Assembly: GCF_024158605.1 (NCBI RefSeq)
Contig: NZ_JAMZGM010000042.1
Span: 1-33,307 of the forward strand
DNA length: 33,307 bases
Origin: Sebaldella sp. S0638
GTDB taxonomy: Bacteria; Fusobacteriota; Fusobacteriia; Fusobacteriales; Leptotrichiaceae
Direction: 5' to 3'
The notes under the pieces were generated by a model, which searched no databases, was not told where the DNA came from, and saw nothing but the letters and a program-made list of their open reading frames with translations. A program made the position numbers and the translations under genes. Shown here in pieces: positions 3,134-11,037 of the stretch (its first letter is position 1; every line of letters starts with the position of its first letter).

Positions 3134-3162
3134 TTGAAAATTTTTTGCAAATAACATATAAT
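3134..3162 (+). promoter_or_regulatory. Promoter of the exonuclease gene
   Basis: TTGAAA (3134-3139), 17 bases, then TATAAT (3157-3162). It overlaps an in-frame upstream ATG at 3145, which argues that translation starts later, at 3193. Confidence 0.65.
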
Positions 3163-3192
3163 GTAATAAATAAATTATTCGGGGTGGAAATA

Positions 3193-3783
3193 ATGTCAAA
3201 AAATATAGTTTTTTTCGATGTGGAAACAAACGGTAAGGTAGGAAGTTCAGTACTGTCAATATCAGCAATAAAAGTGAATTTTAACGGTGAGATACAGAAG
3301 TGGGAAAAAGTAGGAGAGTATGACAGATTCTATTTTCGGAATCCCGGCGAGGAAATAAATATGGGAGCCATAAATGTAAACGGTCTTACAGATAATGTAC
3401 TGGAAAAGAAAAGAGAGGGGAACATATATCCTGTTCATTTCAAAGATGATATAGAATCTTTTTACTCATTCTGTACGGATGCTTCTCACTATGTGGCACA
3501 TAATATAAAGTTCGACAGAAGCTTTATCCCTTTTATGCTGAAAAACCAGTTTGATACCATGATAGAAAATGTGGAAATAGTAAAAGCAGGAATAAATGAG
3601 TATTACGGAACGTATAAATGGCCCAAGCTGAATGAATGTGCCAAGTTTTATAACATACCTTTCGATGACAGCAGTCTTCATGAAAGTTTATATGATGTTC
3701 TGATTACCTTCAGAGTATTTTATAAAATGTCGAAACATCCAATAGCAAAAAATAAAATTTTTAATTTTCTGGAAAAACAGTAA
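3193..3783 (+). CDS. DnaQ-like (DEDDh) 3'-5' exonuclease
   Basis: 196 residues with the three exonuclease motifs of the DEDDh superfamily. Exo I is FFDVETNG (Asp9, Glu11), Exo II is HNIKFDRSF (Asp108), and Exo III is HESLYD (His163, Asp168). These residues bind the two metal ions that hydrolyse the 3'-terminal phosphodiester. It is a stand-alone nuclease domain without polymerase, helicase or BRCT modules, so it could be a proofreading-type, RNase T-like or oligonucleotide-clearing enzyme. The sequence alone does not decide. I chose ATG 3193 over the in-frame ATG 3145 because GGGGTGG lies just before 3193 and the promoter -10 covers 3157-3162. The protein is cytoplasmic and the gene appears monocistronic. 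Confidence 0.8.
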   Translation: MSKNIVFFDVETNGKVGSSVLSISAIKVNFNGEIQKWEKVGEYDRFYFRNPGEEINMGAINVNGLTDNVLEKKREGNIYPVHFKDDIESFYSFCTDASHYVAHNIKFDRSFIPFMLKNQFDTMIENVEIVKAGINEYYGTYKWPKLNECAKFYNIPFDDSSLHESLYDVLITFRVFYKMSKHPIAKNKIFNFLEKQ

Positions 3784-3937: not shown

Positions 3938-3966
3938 TTGACATTTATGCGCGTTTTTATTATAAT
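3938..3966 (+). promoter_or_regulatory. Consensus promoter of the amino-acid uptake operon
   Basis: TTGACA (3938-3943), exactly 17 bases, then TATAAT (3961-3966): a perfect match to the housekeeping sigma-factor consensus. The start site should be near 3973, giving an untranslated leader of about 225 bases before ATG 4200. A promoter this strong ahead of an importer operon implies control after initiation. Confidence 0.8.
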
Positions 3967-3999
3967 TTTAAATAATAGAATGTTTTAGGAGGAACTAAA

Positions 4000-4041
4000 A
4001 TGATAAACAGAAATTTGGAAAGCATGTGTCATCATAGGTAG
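4000..4041 (+). CDS. Leader peptide (13 codons) ending Cys-His-His-Arg
   Basis: ATG 4000 is preceded by a perfect AGGAGG (3987-3992) at 7-base spacing and encodes MINRNLESMCHHR, stop TAG 4039-4041. It lies about 27 bases after the predicted transcription start and about 160 bases before the first structural gene. It is too short to fold or act as an enzyme. The strong ribosome binding site, the late single Cys codon and the hairpins directly after the stop suggest its translation is the signal: ribosome position would decide which hairpin forms. Because the operon encodes uptake of sulfur-containing or polar amino acids, cysteine is the natural candidate signal, but arginine and histidine codons are also present. 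Confidence 0.65.
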   Translation: MINRNLESMCHHR

Positions 4042-4042
4042 T

Positions 4043-4170
4043 GAGTTTGTGCAGTTAGGGTACAGACTCCTGTTGAAATGATTAAATTGAGTCTTGCCTG
4101 TGATGCTTTCGGAATTATCTAAACTTTAGTCCTTTTAATAAGCTCTCAGGGAACTGAGGGAATTTTTTTT
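4043..4170 (+). promoter_or_regulatory. Candidate transcription attenuator (competing hairpins plus terminator)
   Basis: Hairpin A pairs GAGTTTGT (4043-4050) with ACAGACTC (4062-4069). The same 3' arm can instead pair as AGACTC (4064-4069) with GAGTCT (4089-4094), hairpin B. GAG-T-CTT (4089-4095) can alternatively pair, with one bulge, to AAGCTC (4140-4145), which holds part of the 5' arm of the terminator at 4143-4160. A ribosome at the leader stop codon would cover 4043-4050 and favour B and termination. A ribosome stalled at the Cys codon (4027-4029) would leave A free and allow antitermination. The pairings are read from the sequence; the switching is inference, and the antiterminator is only about 6 bp. 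No T-box or SAM-box motif was recognised. Confidence 0.55.
4141..4170 (+). terminator. Intrinsic terminator inside the operon leader
   Basis: CTCTCAG (4143-4149), loop GGAA and CTGAGGG (4154-4160) form a 7-bp stem followed by eight T at 4163-4170. It lies between the promoter and the first structural gene, the position expected of an attenuator. Confidence 0.75.
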
Positions 4171-4199
4171 ATTATAAACTGAAGGAAAGGAAGGTAGCG

Positions 4200-4997
4200 A
4201 TGAAAAAGATTATTTTGATGTTAATATTTCTGCTGAGTATACTTATGTGTTCCAAAAAGGAGGAAAATCAGGCTGACAAAACAACGGGAGAACAAAAACT
4301 TCCTGATAAAATAATAGTCGGACTGGATGATACTTTTGCACCTATGGGATTCAAAGACGAGAAAGGTGAACTTGTGGGATTTGATATTGATCTTGCAAGA
4401 GCAGTGGGGGAAAAACTTGGTGTGGAAGTACAGTTTCAGCCTATAAACTGGGATTCAAAAGAGATGGAACTGAAAAACGGAAATATTAACCTTATCTGGA
4501 ATGGTTTGTCAATAACTGAAGAAAGAAAAAAACAGCTTTTATTCTCAGTTCCTTATCTGGAGAATTCACAGATAATACTTGTGAAAAAAGATTCTGCAAT
4601 AAAAAATAAGGAAGAACTAAAAGGAAAAGTAATAGGAACACAAAGTAAGAGCAGCGGAGAAGATGCAGTTCTGGCTGATCCTGTTAATTCGGAACTAAAA
4701 GAGCTGAGAACATATGATACTTATGATCAGGCATTCTTAGATCTTGATGCCGGAAGAATAGAAGCAATAGTGGGTGATGAAGTACTGGCAAGATACATAA
4801 AAGCCAATAAAGAGAAAAAAGAAGGAAAAGAATTATACGCCATTCTGGAAGGCAGCGACTTTGGGAAAGAGGAATACGGGATTGGAGCAAAAAAAGAAGA
4901 TACTTACCTGATAGAAAAAATAAATGAAGCAATAGAAGAGCTGAAAAAAGACGGTACATATAAAAAGATATACGATAAATGGTTTAGTGCAGAATAG
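4200..4997 (+). CDS. Polar amino-acid (probably cystine) ABC transporter, substrate-binding protein
   Basis: 265 residues of the family 3 solute-binding fold. A hydrophobic N-terminus ends ILMC-SKK; Cys17 could be lipidated, although Met at -1 is an unusual lipobox residue. The binding domain opens KIIVGLDDTFAPMGF, with GFDIDLARAV, NGLSITEERKK and LLFSVPYLEN, all typical of cystine/glutamine/arginine-type binding proteins. The hinge region YDTYDQAFLDLDAGRIEAIVGDE is also present. It is the first structural gene after the attenuator-like leader, with a purine-rich Shine-Dalgarno. It would capture the amino acid outside the inner membrane and deliver it to the permease encoded next. Substrate is not proven; cystine is favoured by the Cys-containing leader and the methionine importer downstream. 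Confidence 0.8.
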   Translation: MKKIILMLIFLLSILMCSKKEENQADKTTGEQKLPDKIIVGLDDTFAPMGFKDEKGELVGFDIDLARAVGEKLGVEVQFQPINWDSKEMELKNGNINLIWNGLSITEERKKQLLFSVPYLENSQIILVKKDSAIKNKEELKGKVIGTQSKSSGEDAVLADPVNSELKELRTYDTYDQAFLDLDAGRIEAIVGDEVLARYIKANKEKKEGKELYAILEGSDFGKEEYGIGAKKEDTYLIEKINEAIEELKKDGTYKKIYDKWFSAE

Positions 4998-5005
4998 GAG
5001 AAAAA

Positions 5006-5653
5006 ATGAGCGAATTATCTATTTTTATTCAAATTTTAAGTTCATTGCCTAATGTGATAATAGTTTATGCTGTTACAGCTGTGATTTCACTTCCTCTTGG
5101 AATAATAGGGGCACTTGCTTACACAGGCAATTCTGTTATCATAAAAAAAAGTATATCATTTTATACATGGATATTCAGGGGAACACCTCTTATACTTCAG
5201 TTATTCTTTATATATTATGGACTGCCTGCCCTGACTAATAATGCAATAGTCCTTGACAGAATGCCGGCAGCGCTTATTACATTTGTAATTAACTACACTG
5301 CATATCTTATAGAAATAATAAGAAGCGGACTGGAAAGTATAGACAAAGGTCAGAGCGAGGCTGCAAAGGTACTTGGTTATTCATATTCTAAGAAAATATG
5401 GTATATTCTTCTGCCGCAAGCAATAAGAAGAGTACTGCCGTCTCTTGGCAATGAAGCAATTACACTGGTAAAGGATACTGCACTGATATATGTAATCTCA
5501 TTAACTGAGATACTAAAGACTACTAAAGAAATAGCCAGCAGAGATTCCATAATAACTCCGTATTTTTATGCCGGACTGATTTATCTGGGACTAAGTTTCC
5601 TTATAGACAGAATATTTAAAAATATGGAGAAAAGAAGTAAGGTGAGAGTATAG
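5006..5653 (+). CDS. Polar amino-acid ABC transporter, permease
   Basis: 215 residues, an inner-membrane permease of the HisM/GlnP family with about five hydrophobic segments. The conserved start region includes FRGTPLILQLFFIYYGLP, the family's typical RGTPLLVQ motif. The cytoplasmic EAA loop, SEAAKVLGYSYSKKIWYILL (about residues 112-131), contacts the ATPase. A TAGGAG ribosome binding site overlaps the stop region of the binding-protein gene (8-base gap), so the two are translationally linked. Only one permease gene is present, so it probably works as a homodimer, as in TcyB-type systems. Confidence 0.85.
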   Translation: MSELSIFIQILSSLPNVIIVYAVTAVISLPLGIIGALAYTGNSVIIKKSISFYTWIFRGTPLILQLFFIYYGLPALTNNAIVLDRMPAALITFVINYTAYLIEIIRSGLESIDKGQSEAAKVLGYSYSKKIWYILLPQAIRRVLPSLGNEAITLVKDTALIYVISLTEILKTTKEIASRDSIITPYFYAGLIYLGLSFLIDRIFKNMEKRSKVRV

Positions 5654-5655
5654 CC

Positions 5656-6387
5656 ATGGATATTATAGAGATAAGAAGTATAAATAAGAGTTATGGTGAA
5701 AACAAGGTTTTGAATGATATTTCACTAAAAGTGGCACAGGGAGAAGTAGTTACCATAATAGGACCTTCGGGAAGCGGAAAATCCACGCTTTTGAGAAGTA
5801 TAGCAGATCTTGAGACTATAGACAGCGGAAGTATACTTATAGAAGGACGGGATATAACTGAAAAATCTATGGATAAGAAGGAAAAGAAGAAAATACTTTT
5901 GAAAACCGGTATGGTATTTCAGAATTTTAATCTTTTTCCTCATATGACTGTAAGAAATAATATAGCAAGAACCCTGAAAGTAGTAAAAAAAGCAACTGCA
6001 AAAGAAGCAGAAGAAATAACAAAGCAGATGCTGGCAAAAGTAGGACTTATAGATAAAATAGATAATTATCCAAATGAGCTGTCAGGCGGGCAGAAACAGA
6101 GAGCGGCAATAGCAAGGGCTATGGCACTTGATCCGGATATTCTGTTATTTGACGAGCCGACTTCAGCACTGGATCCCGAACTGGTAAAAGAGGTTCTGGA
6201 TTTGATTAAAAAGCTGAGAGACGAAAAAACAACAATGTTAATAGTCAGCCATGAAATGAAATTTGTAAAAGAAATTTCCGATAAAGTAATAGTTATGGAA
6301 AAAGGAAAAATACTTGAGGAAGGAACGTCTGAAAAGGTTTTTGAAAATTCATCCTCAGAGAGAGTAAGGGAATTTTTGAAAAAGTAA
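5656..6387 (+). CDS. Polar amino-acid ABC transporter, ATP-binding protein
   Basis: 243 residues, the full length for a GlnQ/TcyC-type ATPase. The Walker A motif GPSGSGKST is at residues 36-44 and the Q-loop is MVFQNFNLFPHMTV. The signature LSGGQ lies at 142-146, Walker B ILLFDEP with Asp166 and the catalytic Glu167, then D-loop SALDPE and H-loop His199. It starts 2 bases after the permease stop and completes the three-gene importer. It hydrolyses ATP on the cytoplasmic side to drive uptake. Nothing is truncated or missing. Confidence 0.9.
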   Translation: MDIIEIRSINKSYGENKVLNDISLKVAQGEVVTIIGPSGSGKSTLLRSIADLETIDSGSILIEGRDITEKSMDKKEKKKILLKTGMVFQNFNLFPHMTVRNNIARTLKVVKKATAKEAEEITKQMLAKVGLIDKIDNYPNELSGGQKQRAAIARAMALDPDILLFDEPTSALDPELVKEVLDLIKKLRDEKTTMLIVSHEMKFVKEISDKVIVMEKGKILEEGTSEKVFENSSSERVREFLKK

Positions 6388-6402: not shown

Positions 6403-7191
6403 ATGAAGAAATCTTTTATAGTTACAATCACTGACTCAAAAGGAATAAAAAGCTATAAATTTAGTCAAAAAATAAAGAAAATAGTCTCTATGCTGGGAAT
6501 TTCCGTAACAATATATCTGTTGATTTCTATAATTGCTTTATTATTTCTTGGAGGGTCTTATCTAAAAAATATAGATATTTTGTCCCAAAATAAGGAATTG
6601 AGAAAATTTAAAAACGACTATGAAGAGGAACAGAAAAGGGAACAGGAGAGAGAAAATAAAAAAGTAAGTATGAGTAACCTGAACGAGGTATCTAAAAACA
6701 AAAAAAGAAAAGTACTTATGATAATACCAAATTCATATCCTGTAAAACCTGATACAAGAGTAACAAGTGAATTTGGCGGAAGAATCCATCCTATTGCCGG
6801 TGTCCAGAAAGATCATAAAGGAATAGATTTCGGAACTGGGATGAATGCAGATATATATTCTACTGCTGACGGTATAGTAAGTTTTGCCGGACAGCAGAAC
6901 GGATACGGAAATGTGGTAATTATTGACCATAGTTTCGGACTGCAGAGTTTTTACGCACATTTAGATTCATATTCAGTAAAAACAAGAGAATTTGTAAAAA
7001 AAGGGCAGATAGTGGCCAAAAGCGGAAACACAGGAAACAGTACCGGACCGCATCTGCATTATGAAATAAGATTTTACGGAGTGCAGTTAGACCCGATGAA
7101 TTTTATAAAATGGAACGAAGAAAATTTTGATTATTTATTTAAAAACGAGAGGAGTATAGAATGGGAGTCTTTTCTAAGGGAAATAATATGA
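6403..7191 (+). CDS. Membrane-anchored M23 (LytM) peptidoglycan endopeptidase
   Basis: 262 residues. A short cytoplasmic N-terminus is followed by one transmembrane helix (about 27-53), a charged coiled-coil stalk (about 55-90) and an M23 domain (about 115-235). Zinc ligands are intact: His138 and Asp142 in HKGIDFG, and His219 in HLHYE, with His186 (YAHL) and His217 in the active site. It should therefore be a catalytically competent endopeptidase cutting peptide cross-links in the periplasm, not a degenerate activator such as EnvC. The next gene, a bactofilin, overlaps its 3' end by 31 bases. M23-bactofilin pairs control cell shape in Helicobacter and other bacteria, so a scaffold-hydrolase partnership is likely here. 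Confidence 0.88.
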   Translation: MKKSFIVTITDSKGIKSYKFSQKIKKIVSMLGISVTIYLLISIIALLFLGGSYLKNIDILSQNKELRKFKNDYEEEQKREQERENKKVSMSNLNEVSKNKKRKVLMIIPNSYPVKPDTRVTSEFGGRIHPIAGVQKDHKGIDFGTGMNADIYSTADGIVSFAGQQNGYGNVVIIDHSFGLQSFYAHLDSYSVKTREFVKKGQIVAKSGNTGNSTGPHLHYEIRFYGVQLDPMNFIKWNEENFDYLFKNERSIEWESFLREII

Positions 7192-7556
7192 TTTCAGAAA
7201 CAAATATAACAGTAATATCACAAAATACAGAGTTGAAAGGTGATATAGTAACAGAGGGAATAATTCAGATAGAAGGAAAAATAGACGGGAAAATAGTGTC
7301 TAAAGATTCTGTGATTATAGGTATGGACGGAGTAGTAACAGGTGAGATTTATTCGGATGAAGCTGTAATAAACGGAACTCTTCTGGGAAAAGTAGAAGCT
7401 GCAAAGGTAAAAATAGGAGAACGTGGAAAAGTAAACGGTACTATAATATCAGAAGTATTTGCAATAGCTGAAGGCGGAGATTTTGAAGGTGATAAAAAAA
7501 TGAGAATCAAAAAAACAGAATCTTCATATTCAGATACAAGTTCTGAATTGTCTTAA
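7161..7556 (+). CDS. Bactofilin (polymer-forming cytoskeletal protein)
   Basis: 131 residues. The central part repeats short beta-strands with the spacing of a right-handed beta-helix: ELKGDIVTEGIIQIEGKIDGKI, DSVIIGMDGVVTGEIYSDEAV, then INGTLLGKVEAAKVKIGERGKVNG (quoted in pieces). The flanking tails are short and polar. Bactofilins polymerise without nucleotide into membrane-associated filaments that localise cell-wall enzymes. I keep ATG 7161, inside the M23 gene, because GAGGAG lies 8 bases before it and the N-terminus MGVFSKGNN is typical; ATG 7188 is a weaker alternative. The 31-base overlap implies coupled translation with the peptidase. Confidence 0.88.
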   Translation: MGVFSKGNNMISETNITVISQNTELKGDIVTEGIIQIEGKIDGKIVSKDSVIIGMDGVVTGEIYSDEAVINGTLLGKVEAAKVKIGERGKVNGTIISEVFAIAEGGDFEGDKKMRIKKTESSYSDTSSELS

Positions 7557-7575
7557 AAAATGAGAGGTGGAAAAG

Positions 7576-8589
7576 TTGGCAAAGCACATAGAAGTAAAGA
7601 ATCTAACTAAAATATATACAAATGTGGACAAAGAATTCAAAGCTGTGGACGATATTTCACTGTCAATTAATAAAAATGACATATATGGGATAATGGGACT
7701 AAGCGGAGCAGGAAAGTCAACTTTTATCAGGATGTTAAACAGGTTAGAGGAACCAAGCTCCGGAGAAATTTTTATAAACGGAGAAAATATAGTAGAATTA
7801 CCTAAAAAAAAGTTATTGGAATATAGAAGAAAAACAGGAATGATATTTCAGCATTTTAATCTTCTGAGCTCTAGGGATGTAAAAGGAAACGTGGCATTTG
7901 CCCTTGAGCTGGCCGGATGGCCGAAGGGTAAAATAGAACCTAGGGTAGATGAATTATTGGAACTAGTGGGGCTTGAAGACAAACGAAATGTGTATCCCAG
8001 TCAGCTGTCAGGCGGTCAGAAACAGAGAGTGGCAATAGCAAGAGCATTGGCAAATTATCCTGAAATTCTGCTTTCAGATGAAGCTACAAGCGCTCTTGAC
8101 CCCAGAACGACGGTTTCTATTCTGGAACTGTTAAAGGACATTCAGAAAAAGCTGGGTCTGACTATAGTACTGATAACCCACCAAATGGAAGTAATAAGAA
8201 AAGTATGTAACAGAACTGCTATAATGTCAGATGGTAAATTAATAGAAGAAGGAAGTACAAAAGAAATATTCCTGAATCCTAAAAACGAACTGACAAGGGA
8301 ATTCGTATCACATATAGCACCTGAAACAGAAACTAAAAAAGAAAAAATGAAAATAACAGGAAAACAGATGTTAAAGCTGAATTTTCAAGGTGAACAGGCT
8401 GAGAAGCCGTACATATCAGATATGGTAAAAAAATATGGTCTGGATGTAAACATTCTCGGCGGTACCATAGATGAGCTTGCAGATGATAAAGTGGGACATC
8501 TTCTTGTGGAGATTCTCGGAAGCGAGACTGAGAGAAACAGTGCGATAAGCTGGCTGAAAGAAAATAAGATAGAAGTGGAGGAAGTATAA
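7576..8589 (+). CDS. metN: Methionine ABC transporter, ATP-binding protein
   Basis: 337 residues from a TTG start. GAGGTGG (7563-7569) lies 6 bases before TTG 7576. The in-frame GTG at 7567 sits inside that ribosome binding site and is unlikely to be used. Walker A GLSGAGKST is at 41-49, the signature LSGGQ at 144-148, and Walker B has Asp168 in the MetN-typical form SDEATSALDP. The extra C-terminal domain (about 260-337, from LNFQGEQAEKPYISDMVKKY) is the NIL regulatory domain, which binds methionine and inhibits transport when internal methionine is high. The gene is 19 bases after the bactofilin and overlaps metI by one base. Confidence 0.92.
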   Translation: MAKHIEVKNLTKIYTNVDKEFKAVDDISLSINKNDIYGIMGLSGAGKSTFIRMLNRLEEPSSGEIFINGENIVELPKKKLLEYRRKTGMIFQHFNLLSSRDVKGNVAFALELAGWPKGKIEPRVDELLELVGLEDKRNVYPSQLSGGQKQRVAIARALANYPEILLSDEATSALDPRTTVSILELLKDIQKKLGLTIVLITHQMEVIRKVCNRTAIMSDGKLIEEGSTKEIFLNPKNELTREFVSHIAPETETKKEKMKITGKQMLKLNFQGEQAEKPYISDMVKKYGLDVNILGGTIDELADDKVGHLLVEILGSETERNSAISWLKENKIEVEEV

Positions 8590-9269
8590 TGCAATTTGAC
8601 TGGGCTGAATTTTTTAATTTTGGAAATATGCTTATTCCCCTCTGGGAAACTGTGTATATGGTTTTGATATCTATGTTTTTTGCATTGCTTATCGGAATGC
8701 CTCTGGGAATACTTCTGGTGACAAGTTCTGAAAATCATATTGCACCTAACAGAAGTCTTAATAAAATTTTAGATATTATCCTCATTAATATTACAAGATC
8801 AATTCCTTTTATTATATTAATGGTAGTGTTAATTCCCGTGGCCAGAGGAATTATAGGAAAATCTTTTGGCAACGAGGCCTTTATTGTTTATCTGGCACTT
8901 GGTTCGGCGCCGTTTGTTGCACGGGTAATAGAAGGTGCATTGAACGAAGTAGACAAAGGATTAATAGAAGCTTCGAAATCACTGGGAGCTACGAATTATC
9001 ATATAATAACAAAGGTAATGCTTCCGGAAGCACTGCCGTCTTTGATACACGGAATGGTACTTGCCCTTATTACACTTATAGGATATTCTGCAATGGCAGG
9101 TATAGTAGGCGGAGGAGGTCTGGGGAACCAGGCTGTAGTAGCTGGTTTTCAGAACAGTAATCCCGCTATAATATGGAAAGCTACACTGATCATTATAATA
9201 TTGGTGCAGATAATACAATTTGTTGGTAACCTTATAGTTAAAAAAATATATAAAAAACGAGGGAAATAG
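8589..9269 (+). CDS. metI: Methionine ABC transporter, permease
   Basis: 226 residues, an inner-membrane protein with about five hydrophobic segments. The EAA loop IEASKSLGATNYHIITKVML contacts MetN. GYSAMAGIVGGGGLGN is the highly conserved MetI motif near the C-terminus. The start ATG shares a base with the metN stop (TAATG), the usual sign of translational coupling. It forms the transmembrane pathway for methionine as a homodimer. Confidence 0.92.
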   Translation: MQFDWAEFFNFGNMLIPLWETVYMVLISMFFALLIGMPLGILLVTSSENHIAPNRSLNKILDIILINITRSIPFIILMVVLIPVARGIIGKSFGNEAFIVYLALGSAPFVARVIEGALNEVDKGLIEASKSLGATNYHIITKVMLPEALPSLIHGMVLALITLIGYSAMAGIVGGGGLGNQAVVAGFQNSNPAIIWKATLIIIILVQIIQFVGNLIVKKIYKKRGK

Positions 9270-9280
9270 GAGGTAACAAA

Positions 9281-10108
9281 ATGAAAAAGTTTTTAATAGG
9301 AATTCTGACATTAGGTGTAATATTTTCATGCGGGAAAAAAGAGGAAACACCGGCAGCTGATGCTGGAAAACCTGCTGAAACACCAAAAGAGCAAAAATTA
9401 GTAATCGGAGCAACACCAACACCGCATGCAGAAATTCTGGAACAGGTAAAAGAGGATTTGAAAAAAGAAGGAATAGATCTGGAAATAAAAATATTTGATG
9501 ACTATGTACTTCCAAACAGACTTCTTGGAGAAAAAACACTGGATGCAAACTACTTTCAGCATGTTCCTTATATGGAAGAATTCGCACAGAAAAATAATAT
9601 GGAACTTGTGGCAGTAGCTAAAATACATGTGGAACCGCTTGCAGTATATTCTAAAAAAGTTAAGGATCTGGCAGAATTACCGGAAGGTTCAGATGTATTA
9701 ATACCAAATGATCCTACAAACAGAGGAAGAGCATTAATATTACTGGATAAAAGCGGTATAATCAAACTGAAAGACAACAAAAAACTAGATTCAACTATAG
9801 AAGACATCGCAGAAAATCCTAAAAAACTAAAAGTTACAGCATTAAATGCTGATCAGATTCCAACTAGACTTAGTGAAGTGGGAGCAGCGGTAATTAATGG
9901 TAATTTCGCAATGAAAAATAATCTGAATCCGCTAACAGACAGTATATTTATCGAAGATAAAGATTCACCTTATGCGAATGTAATTACAGTTCTAAAAGGA
10001 AATGAAAACGACGAAAGAGTGCAGAAACTGGTAAAAGCACTTCAAAGTGAAAAAATCAAAAAATTTATAGAAGAAAAATACCAAGGATCTGTAGTACCGG
10101 CATTTTAA
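9281..10108 (+). CDS. metQ: Methionine-binding lipoprotein (first copy)
   Basis: 275 residues of the NlpA/MetQ family. A signal peptide with lipobox IFSC (Cys17) is followed by a Pro/Ala/Glu linker and the binding domain, opening KLVIGATPTPHAEILEQV. Family motifs are DYVLPNRLL, DANYFQHVPYMEEF, HVEPLAVYSKKVK and IPNDPTNRGRALILL. AGGAGG precedes the ATG. The protein is anchored on the outer face of the inner membrane, or possibly the outer membrane, and feeds methionine or a methionine derivative to MetI. A terminator follows, separating it from the second copy. Confidence 0.9.
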   Translation: MKKFLIGILTLGVIFSCGKKEETPAADAGKPAETPKEQKLVIGATPTPHAEILEQVKEDLKKEGIDLEIKIFDDYVLPNRLLGEKTLDANYFQHVPYMEEFAQKNNMELVAVAKIHVEPLAVYSKKVKDLAELPEGSDVLIPNDPTNRGRALILLDKSGIIKLKDNKKLDSTIEDIAENPKKLKVTALNADQIPTRLSEVGAAVINGNFAMKNNLNPLTDSIFIEDKDSPYANVITVLKGNENDERVQKLVKALQSEKIKKFIEEKYQGSVVPAF

Positions 10109-10114
10109 GAAAAT

Positions 10115-10159
10115 AAAAAATCAGAAAGAGGGTTTCCTAATTCTTATCTGATTTTTTTT
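10115..10159 (+). terminator. Terminator after the first metQ
   Basis: AAAAAATCAGA (10115-10125) pairs with TCTGATTTTTT (10147-10157) across a loop of about 20 bases, with a T run on the 3' side. It could be partial and let some transcription reach the second metQ. Confidence 0.65.
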
Positions 10160-10233
10160 AAAACTTTTTATCCGGAAAGACGAATATTCATAAGCAGCTT
10201 TATATGGTGAAACACTTATAACAGGAGGAAAAA

Positions 10234-11037
10234 ATGAAAAAGATAATACTGGGAATATTAATGGGAGCGTTTTTGCTTTCATGCGGAAATAAAGACGGGG
10301 CAGCAGCAAAATCCGACGGGAAAAAAGTCCTTGTGGTAGCGGCTACGCCTGAACCACATGGTGAAATATTAAAAGAAGCAATACCTATGATGGCTAATAG
10401 AGGGATAGAATTAAAAGTAGAAATCTTTAATGACTATGTAATGCCAAACAAAGTTCTTGCTGAGAAAACTGTTGATGCGAATTTATTTCAGCATAAACCG
10501 TTTCTGGATAATTATAATGAAAAAAACGGTACGGAAATAGTAGATGTGGCAAGAAGTTATACAGCACCGCTTGCACTATATTCTGACAAGTATAAGTCTC
10601 TTGACGACTTGGAAAACGGAGCGGAAATATTAATAGCAAATGATCCTACAAACTTGGCAAGATCGTTAATATTACTTGATAAAAATGGTATTATAAAACT
10701 AAAAGATCCTAATAATGTAGTAGCTACACTGGATGATATAGTAGAAAATCCGAAAAATCTGAAAATAACTACAATAACAGCTGATCAGATAGCAATAAGA
10801 TTAAAAGAAGTAGGAGCAGCAGTAATACCTGGAAATTACGCAGTGAAAAACGGGCTTAATCCTAGAGAAAGCCTCGCAGTGGAAAGTAAAGATTCTCCAT
10901 ATGCCAATATAATTGCAGTATTAAAAGGAAACGAAAATGATGAAAGAATCAAGATATTAATAGAAGTCCTTCAGAGTGATGAAATGAGAAAAATTGTTGA
11001 ACAAAAATACAACGGTTCAGTAATAGCAACATTCTAA
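10234..11037 (+). CDS. metQ: Methionine-binding lipoprotein (second copy)
   Basis: 267 residues, a close paralogue of the product at 9281-10108, with lipobox LLSC (Cys17). It shares DYVMPNKVLAEKTVDANLFQ, NDPTNLARSLILLDKNGIIK and the C-terminal YNGSV block. The linker after the lipidated Cys is shorter and less charged than in the first copy. AGGAGG lies just upstream of ATG 10234. Having two binding proteins for one MetN-MetI pair suggests different ligands (L- versus D-methionine, methionine sulfoxide or short peptides) or different expression levels. The sequence does not tell which. Separate terminators flank it. Confidence 0.88.
   Translation: MKKIILGILMGAFLLSCGNKDGAAAKSDGKKVLVVAATPEPHGEILKEAIPMMANRGIELKVEIFNDYVMPNKVLAEKTVDANLFQHKPFLDNYNEKNGTEIVDVARSYTAPLALYSDKYKSLDDLENGAEILIANDPTNLARSLILLDKNGIIKLKDPNNVVATLDDIVENPKNLKITTITADQIAIRLKEVGAAVIPGNYAVKNGLNPRESLAVESKDSPYANIIAVLKGNENDERIKILIEVLQSDEMRKIVEQKYNGSVIATF

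Follow-up and report, generated by a model that had tools for sequence, protein, structure and literature searches.

In the his operon attenuator of enterobacteria, a leader peptide with His codons is followed by alternative hairpins and a terminator (PMC9413887). Outside the Proteobacteria, His leader peptides are likewise described before his genes, as attenuators in the Bacillus cereus group, the Peptostreptococcaceae, Lutispora and the Erysipelotrichales (PMC9413887) and upstream of hisZ and hisS paralogs in bacilli (PMC2965389). The relevant portions of these two papers describe no scaffold that is common to other amino acids, and the word Fusobacteria is absent from their main texts; in the relevant portion of PMC4833913 it occurs once, for a group with few genomes. 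Here we analyse a leader in a stretch of 33,307 nucleotides from Sebaldella sp. S0638 (contig NZ_JAMZGM010000042.1, positions 1 to 33,307), the whole of which is called the window below. Whereas the enterobacterial attenuator precedes histidine genes, this leader precedes an amino-acid importer, carries two His codons and has other sequences. Judged from comparative sequence analysis, it is highly likely to be a histidine-responsive, ribosome-mediated transcription attenuator, belonging to a phylum-wide set that would be re-targeted by the codons before the leader stop. The class of mechanism is classical; constant hairpins with exchanged codons across a phylum amount to a natural codon-swap experiment.

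A second relative is the trpB motif (Rfam RF04312; Narunsky et al. 2024, PMC11109978), which has more than 900 representatives and is found in Firmicutes and Fusobacteria. In this motif a hairpin, corresponding to the pairing of segments C and D described below, is followed by a terminator, and the right shoulder of that hairpin holds the antiterminator strand, as it does here. The gene most commonly associated with it is an ABC transporter. The motif was published as a strong riboswitch candidate, with the caveat that a classic attenuator cannot be ruled out, and a leader peptide goes unmentioned in the portion of the paper that describes it (PMC11109978). Within the open-access literature we found neither a report of the scaffold in Fusobacteriota nor a follow-up on the trpB motif, most subscription papers lying outside this coverage.

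Anatomy of the leader

The leader lies on the forward strand, with a 3'-5' exonuclease-like gene (3145-3783) on one side and the three-gene importer on the other. A sigma-70 type promoter, TTGACA-17-TATAAT (3938-3966, with the -35 hexamer at 3938-3943 and the -10 hexamer at 3961-3966), agrees with the consensus at 12 of 12 positions, and both hexamers are unchanged in two other members of the genus (L010 and L011), which also keep the Shine-Dalgarno (SD) sequence AGGAGG found at 3987-3992. This is followed by a frame of 13 codons, MINRNLESMCHHR*, running from an ATG at 4000 to a TAG stop at 4039-4041. The putative control codons are the His codons at 4030-4032 and 4033-4035, at the place where runs of His end the orthologous leaders. 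The promoter, SD sequence, 13-codon frame, competing hairpins and terminator before an amino-acid importer had all been named in a sequence-only reading of this DNA, and all of them are present.

Segment A (4030-4040) comprises the His codons, the Arg codon and the stop, and its bases 4030-4039 can pair with 4096-4105 if no ribosome covers them. Directly after the stop comes segment B (4043-4052), the 5' arm of a hairpin with segment C (4058-4069); both are backed by duplex energy and covariation. Segment C may pair instead with 4089-4098, the first part of segment D (4089-4108), of which 4097-4108 form the antiterminator strand. The partner of that strand, segment E1 (4140-4150), includes the 5' arm of an intrinsic terminator at 4143-4170 (stem 4143-4149/4154-4160, -10.5 kcal/mol, with eight T at 4163-4170). 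As duplexes, B:C (4043-4052 with 4060-4069) reaches -12.3 kcal/mol, C:D (4058-4069 with 4089-4098) -13.9 kcal/mol and the antiterminator D:E1 (4097-4108 with 4140-4150) -12.0 kcal/mol, while A:D reaches -20.5 kcal/mol including seven extra pairs between 4018-4024 and the region 3' of 4105. The window leader has the two hallmarks of an attenuator, namely mutually exclusive helices of which one branch is an intrinsic terminator, and a translatable leader with an SD sequence and cognate codons near its end. Folding of the whole leader (3973-4176) was much more stable than that of shuffled sequences (z -4.2, 0 of 200 shuffles as good), and the part after the stop, taken alone, was unremarkable (z -1.55, 17 of 200 shuffles). 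The antiterminator proposed in the sequence-only reading, 4089-4095 with 4140-4145, comes to -3.1 kcal/mol as against -12.0 kcal/mol for 4097-4108 with 4140-4150, and was rejected on strength.

These elements suggest the following order of events. RNA polymerase would start near 3973, a position predicted from the promoter, with a ribosome trailing on the leader frame. When charged tRNA-His is ample, the ribosome would move on to the stop at 4039 and cover B with its front edge, leaving C to pair with D; D could then not hold E1, the terminator would form and transcription would end. When histidine is scarce, a ribosome pausing at 4030-4035 would allow B:C to form and set D free to pair with E1, which would pre-empt the terminator and let the importer be transcribed. 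If the leader were not translated at all, A would pair with D and the terminator would form.

The front edge of a ribosome lies about 12 nucleotides (nt) past the first base of the A-site codon. At the stop it would thus reach about 4051 and cover B, and at either His codon it would reach about 4042-4045 and leave most of B uncovered. The sequence-only reading had relied on the same geometry for a ribosome stalled at the Cys codon (4027-4029). That geometry is workable but not specific to Cys, since a stall at His fits equally well. Because a stall at Cys 4027 would have a like effect, the choice between the two amino acids falls to comparison with other genomes.

Control codons follow the downstream gene

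A covariance model, R1, was built from the A:D and B:C helices of 13 importer leaders and used to search 98 Fusobacteriota genomes at E <= 0.5. This gave 96 rows in 56 of the 98 genomes; after removal of 13 antisense copies, 83 sense sites remained, of which 13 are the training set. All 83 were read with a rule blind to amino acids (an SD sequence, a start, 8-45 codons and a stop near the start of the model), and a leader was found at 80 of them, the sites without one being L116, L208 and L211. Downstream genes were classified by tblastn, with 12 proteins of the window and the surveyed loci as references, and 77 of the 80 leaders obtained a gene class in this way. When His was scored as cognate for the importer and hisZ, Pro for putP, Tyr for tyrS and Met for metN, 75 of the 77 carried at least two cognate residues among their last eight; when gene labels were shuffled 5000 times, the mean was 42.7 and the maximum 55. 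Counting His as cognate for the importer is partly the point being argued. The 21 leaders before PutP (16), TyrS (3) and MetN-type (2) genes are independent of that assumption: Pro, Tyr or Met is present in every one, and two His are found in none. The leaders that fell short are L082, with MCSHRC before a permease, and L028, where HHHH lies farther from the stop. The training leaders were all of importer type, nearly all with His runs (L082 included), and therefore R1 recognises the hairpins and not the codons.

The signal proposed in the sequence-only reading was cysteine: a stall at Cys 4027-4029 would turn on a cystine (and methionine) uptake operon. Besides the permissive geometry and the MetNIQ-type genes downstream in the window, this finds support in Cys codons in the leaders of three members of the genus and of two other genera (SMCHHR in L074 and MCYHHHH in L028), in AMCMS before a MetN-type gene of a sister genome (L092) and in MCSHRC of L082. 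Among the 56 importer and hisZ leaders, at least one Cys in the last eight residues occurs in 8 and at least two in 1, as against at least two His in 54, and His, Tyr or Thr takes the place of Cys in MHHHR (L075), SYHHR (L019) and THHHR (L097). A single control codon would also be unusual for an attenuator. A Cys attenuator should show Cys at the control positions across relatives, and these hold His, with Cys merely neighbouring the His pair; we consider a response to cysteine very unlikely and have dropped it as the main reading in favour of histidine.

The leader L092 of genome G018 reads MKRFREAMCMS before a MetN-type gene, and its RNA is nearly identical to that of the leaders ending in CHHR; it reaches a different stop, and therefore Met codons occupy the place of the His codons. 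This near-identity, together with the points given for cysteine, might be taken to favour a mixed sensor, in which the Met-Cys-His-His stretch answers to histidine and sulfur amino acids in keeping with the metNIQ-type genes downstream. The sequence bears no sign of selection on the Met or Cys codons here and most relatives have pure His runs, which makes such a sensor very unlikely beside one that answers to histidine.

Leaders of orthologous importers

The binding protein of the importer was matched in 59 of 60 genomes searched (its own included), many matches being paralogs, and the upstream regions of the best 30 matches (L009-L038) were read. A leader was present in 16 of the 30. Their endings are CHHR (the window, two genus members and, as SMCHHR, L027), MHHHR, MCYHHHH..., SYHHR, HHHHHR, HHHHHG, IHHHHR, IHHHYR and IHHHQI, and the residue common to them is His. 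The expectation that orthologous leaders would share the frame, the helices and the CHHR end was borne out for the frame and for the helices, which covary (A:D modestly), but CHHR is not general and what is shared is His. Promoter, SD sequence, frame, helices and terminator are kept in genomes G003 and G002, whose substrate-binding proteins (SBP) are 92% and 76% identical to that of the window, and therefore the layout is more than chance. In the fourth genome of the genus, G001 (86% complete), nothing close to the binding protein was found.

Of the 14 matches without a leader, 13 come from the genomes of genus g3, and the remaining one, L038, immediately follows another gene. In genus g3 (13 of the 98 genomes) the importer is kept and none of the 13 has an R1 site, and therefore its regulation there must differ.

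One operon of G009 (contig C23) has two leaders, SYHHR before the binding protein (L019) and MCSHRC before the permease (L082); the binding-protein match of L019 contains one in-frame TAA. A second copy of the scaffold is found in the genome of the window itself (L099, G000:C37:19408-19504), where the leader MTLISLNNNSINKIKAHHHIGRV, ending in AHHHIGRV, precedes a hisZ-like gene that scores 218.4 bits with TIGR00443 (cut-off 271.65).

Covariation and cross-pairing

For the analysis of pairing, 91 loci were curated with the aid of peptide motifs, and the 61 from Fusobacteriota, of all classes, were aligned. In this alignment B:C was paired in 96.3% of cells and showed 53 double changes, where 500 shuffles gave a mean of 17.2 and a maximum of 27; C:D was paired in 87.0% with 77 (mean 32.4, maximum 46) and A:D in 77.0% with 35 (mean 17.6, maximum 32), all counts of double changes being inflated by the relatedness of the sequences. 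Slid registers pair at 30-53%. The weakest helix is A:D, because a slid register attains 23 double changes.

Partners were also exchanged between classes. In importer, Pro and Lactobacillales Trp leaders the own A:D is stronger than pairings with partners from other classes, the median fraction of foreign pairings as strong being 0.0, 0.0 and 0.017; in hisZ leaders this fraction is 0.061. Conservation, covariation and the matching of codons to genes back the view that the window leader is a ribosome-mediated attenuator, as the sequence-only reading had proposed.

The trpB motif

RF04312 matched parts of five of the six orthologous leaders tried, in several of them the second half, all below the gathering cut-off of 59 bits, the best being L034 with 52.4 bits (E 6e-5). 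The window leader itself had no RF04312 match and does not qualify as a member of the family. Among the Fusobacteriota, RF04312 was found in 46 of the 98 genomes at E <= 0.01 and in none over the cut-off. A leader is present at all 30 of 30 loci among the best of these matches; beyond the 30, in the part of the rows that was read, L131, L132, L134, L135 and L136 have none. The RF04312 rows missed by R1 include Trp leaders with WQSH and WQSHWI before TrpX (L128, L129), aromatic runs WYFYYF and WYFYYYF before a DAHP synthase (L123, L137) and an NPTVPR leader before PutP (L130).

In the Lactobacillales, 133 of 295 genomes have RF04312 at E <= 1e-4 and 52 of 295 over the cut-off; it occurs in 2 of 398 genomes of a Bacillota sample and in none of three streptococci. 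We read 50 Lactobacillales loci from 49 genomes, 30 that score over the cut-off and 20 hand-picked from the weaker matches beneath it. At 48 of the 50, an SD-led leader ending in Trp codons lies just upstream of the modelled part, commonly with the ending WQNWRR or WQSWRR. The other two are L190, with FNFSYFRRCL upstream of a binding-protein gene, and L186, which has Trp codons and an unclear start. A blind rule found Trp in the last ten residues at 46 of the 50 loci and picked another frame in L158 and L159; random positions within these loci gave 136 of 7952. NCBIfam models identified three of the downstream genes, as TrpX (L144, L157) and TrpB (L149); the remaining ones were assigned by visual inspection of their N-terminal residues, L142 and L145 having no clear gene in reach.

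On these results the trpB motif, too, very probably works as a leader-peptide attenuator. R1 finds the Lactobacillales leaders weakly (best E 0.0024), and therefore the two groups are likely, though not proven, to share a common origin. We think it probable that one scaffold in Fusobacteriota and Lactobacillales serves as a re-programmable sensor, whose codons and antiterminator strand would have been swapped among His, Pro, Tyr, Trp, aromatic and Met versions, with RF04312 as the Trp version and not a riboswitch. If true, this would explain an orphan riboswitch candidate in concrete terms. The converse would be that the window leader is a ligand-binding riboswitch of the trpB-motif kind and its short frame incidental, as the partial RF04312 matches to the orthologous leaders and the published standing of the family might suggest. 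Against this stand the leaders at the 48 Lactobacillales, 30 Fusobacteriota and 80 R1 loci counted above, hairpins that stay constant while the amino acid follows the gene, and the lack of an RF04312 match in the window leader; we regard a riboswitch here as extremely unlikely.

Contrary evidence and folding of the nascent RNA

Several observations weigh against a histidine-responsive attenuator in the window. Equilibrium folding of the nascent RNA separates the two states of the window leader poorly, with 0.84 for the starved and 0.78 for the replete state at a footprint of 12 nt, and on a stricter measure the starved and replete values are 0.61 and 0.84 (9 nt), 0.79 and 0.57 (11 nt), 0.85 and 0.78 (13 nt) and 0.84 and 0.79 (15 nt). 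As a class, the importer leaders have starved above replete in 19 of 30 (12 nt), and on the stricter measure at 15 nt 7 of 30 go up and 12 down. The leader retains two His codons only, preceded by Cys in all three genus members read. In the Tyr and aromatic leaders the own A:D is not stronger than foreign ones (0.648 and 0.865), nor is it in two fusobacterial Trp leaders (0.483), and therefore A:D looks optional. For the importer leaders an E1 from another class fits D nearly as well (median fraction 0.449), a comparison of little power because the core of D and E1 is common across classes. R1 missed two importer leaders (IHHHQI in L029 and L030), the hisZ and MetN matches score under curated cut-offs, and by fold Gln and Arg binders score as high for the binding protein of the window.

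In other classes the 12-nt simulation gave starved above replete in 28 of 30 Lactobacillales Trp, 9 of 10 Pro, 9 of 11 hisZ, 2 of 2 aromatic and 2 of 3 Tyr leaders. On the stricter measure the Lactobacillales Trp leaders keep the expected tendency, with 23 up and 2 down of 30 at 9 nt and 16 up and 6 down at 15 nt, the Pro leaders show no separation (at 9 nt, 4 of 10 go up and 4 down), and all 91 loci together go from 54 up and 15 down at 9 nt to 32 up and 24 down at 15 nt.

Perhaps the flat simulation and the smaller number of control codons than in most relatives mean that the leader is vestigial, its frame and hairpins inherited and its regulation lost in Sebaldella sp. S0638. This sits badly with the retention of promoter, SD sequence, frame, helices and terminator at 76-92% SBP identity and with CHHR in three members of the genus, and we give it very little credence next to a working attenuator that responds to histidine.

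The importer, its neighbourhood and minor observations

The importer genes, all on the forward strand, encode an SBP_bac_3 substrate-binding protein (4200-4997), predicted to bind histidine or another polar amino acid, a permease (5006-5653) and an ATPase (5656-6387). The sequence-only reading took this for a putative cystine/methionine importer; curated protein models all scored below their cut-offs on these proteins. Among natural solved relatives of the binding protein, the closest is 3hv1, whose title names no ligand, followed by 4ohn, crystallised with bound histidine. Downstream on the same strand, 6403-11037 hold an M23 peptidase gene, then an unclassified frame at 7161-7556 (bactofilin-like by eye), and also MetN-type, MetI-type (by eye) and two MetQ-type genes.

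T-box, His_leader and other Rfam families had no gathering match in the window. Matches below the cut-off, namely SL1 in the window (E 0.62), SECIS_3 in L140 and MicC and Thr_leader in L023, were taken as chance.

Some further leaders were seen in passing. NHHHHR leaders with the scaffold occur in G078 and G079 (L040 and L061), and L046 has an HHHHRY leader with an RF04312 match. In L117 (G016:C5, R1 E 0.052) the leader MKYTTTFMMMHMYT precedes a MetN-like ATPase gene; L207 has a leader ending in FYWWRS and no classified gene, and in L172, from another Bacillota genome, a leader ending in FFNNHFR precedes a transporter gene. In L124 (G088:C44), an RF04312 row missed by R1, a Tyr leader is followed by a second frame with a tyrosine run, MFRTNYYYYYYYKSDLDYAI, and by another terminator-like hairpin before an AgcS carrier gene; these are possibly tandem attenuators.
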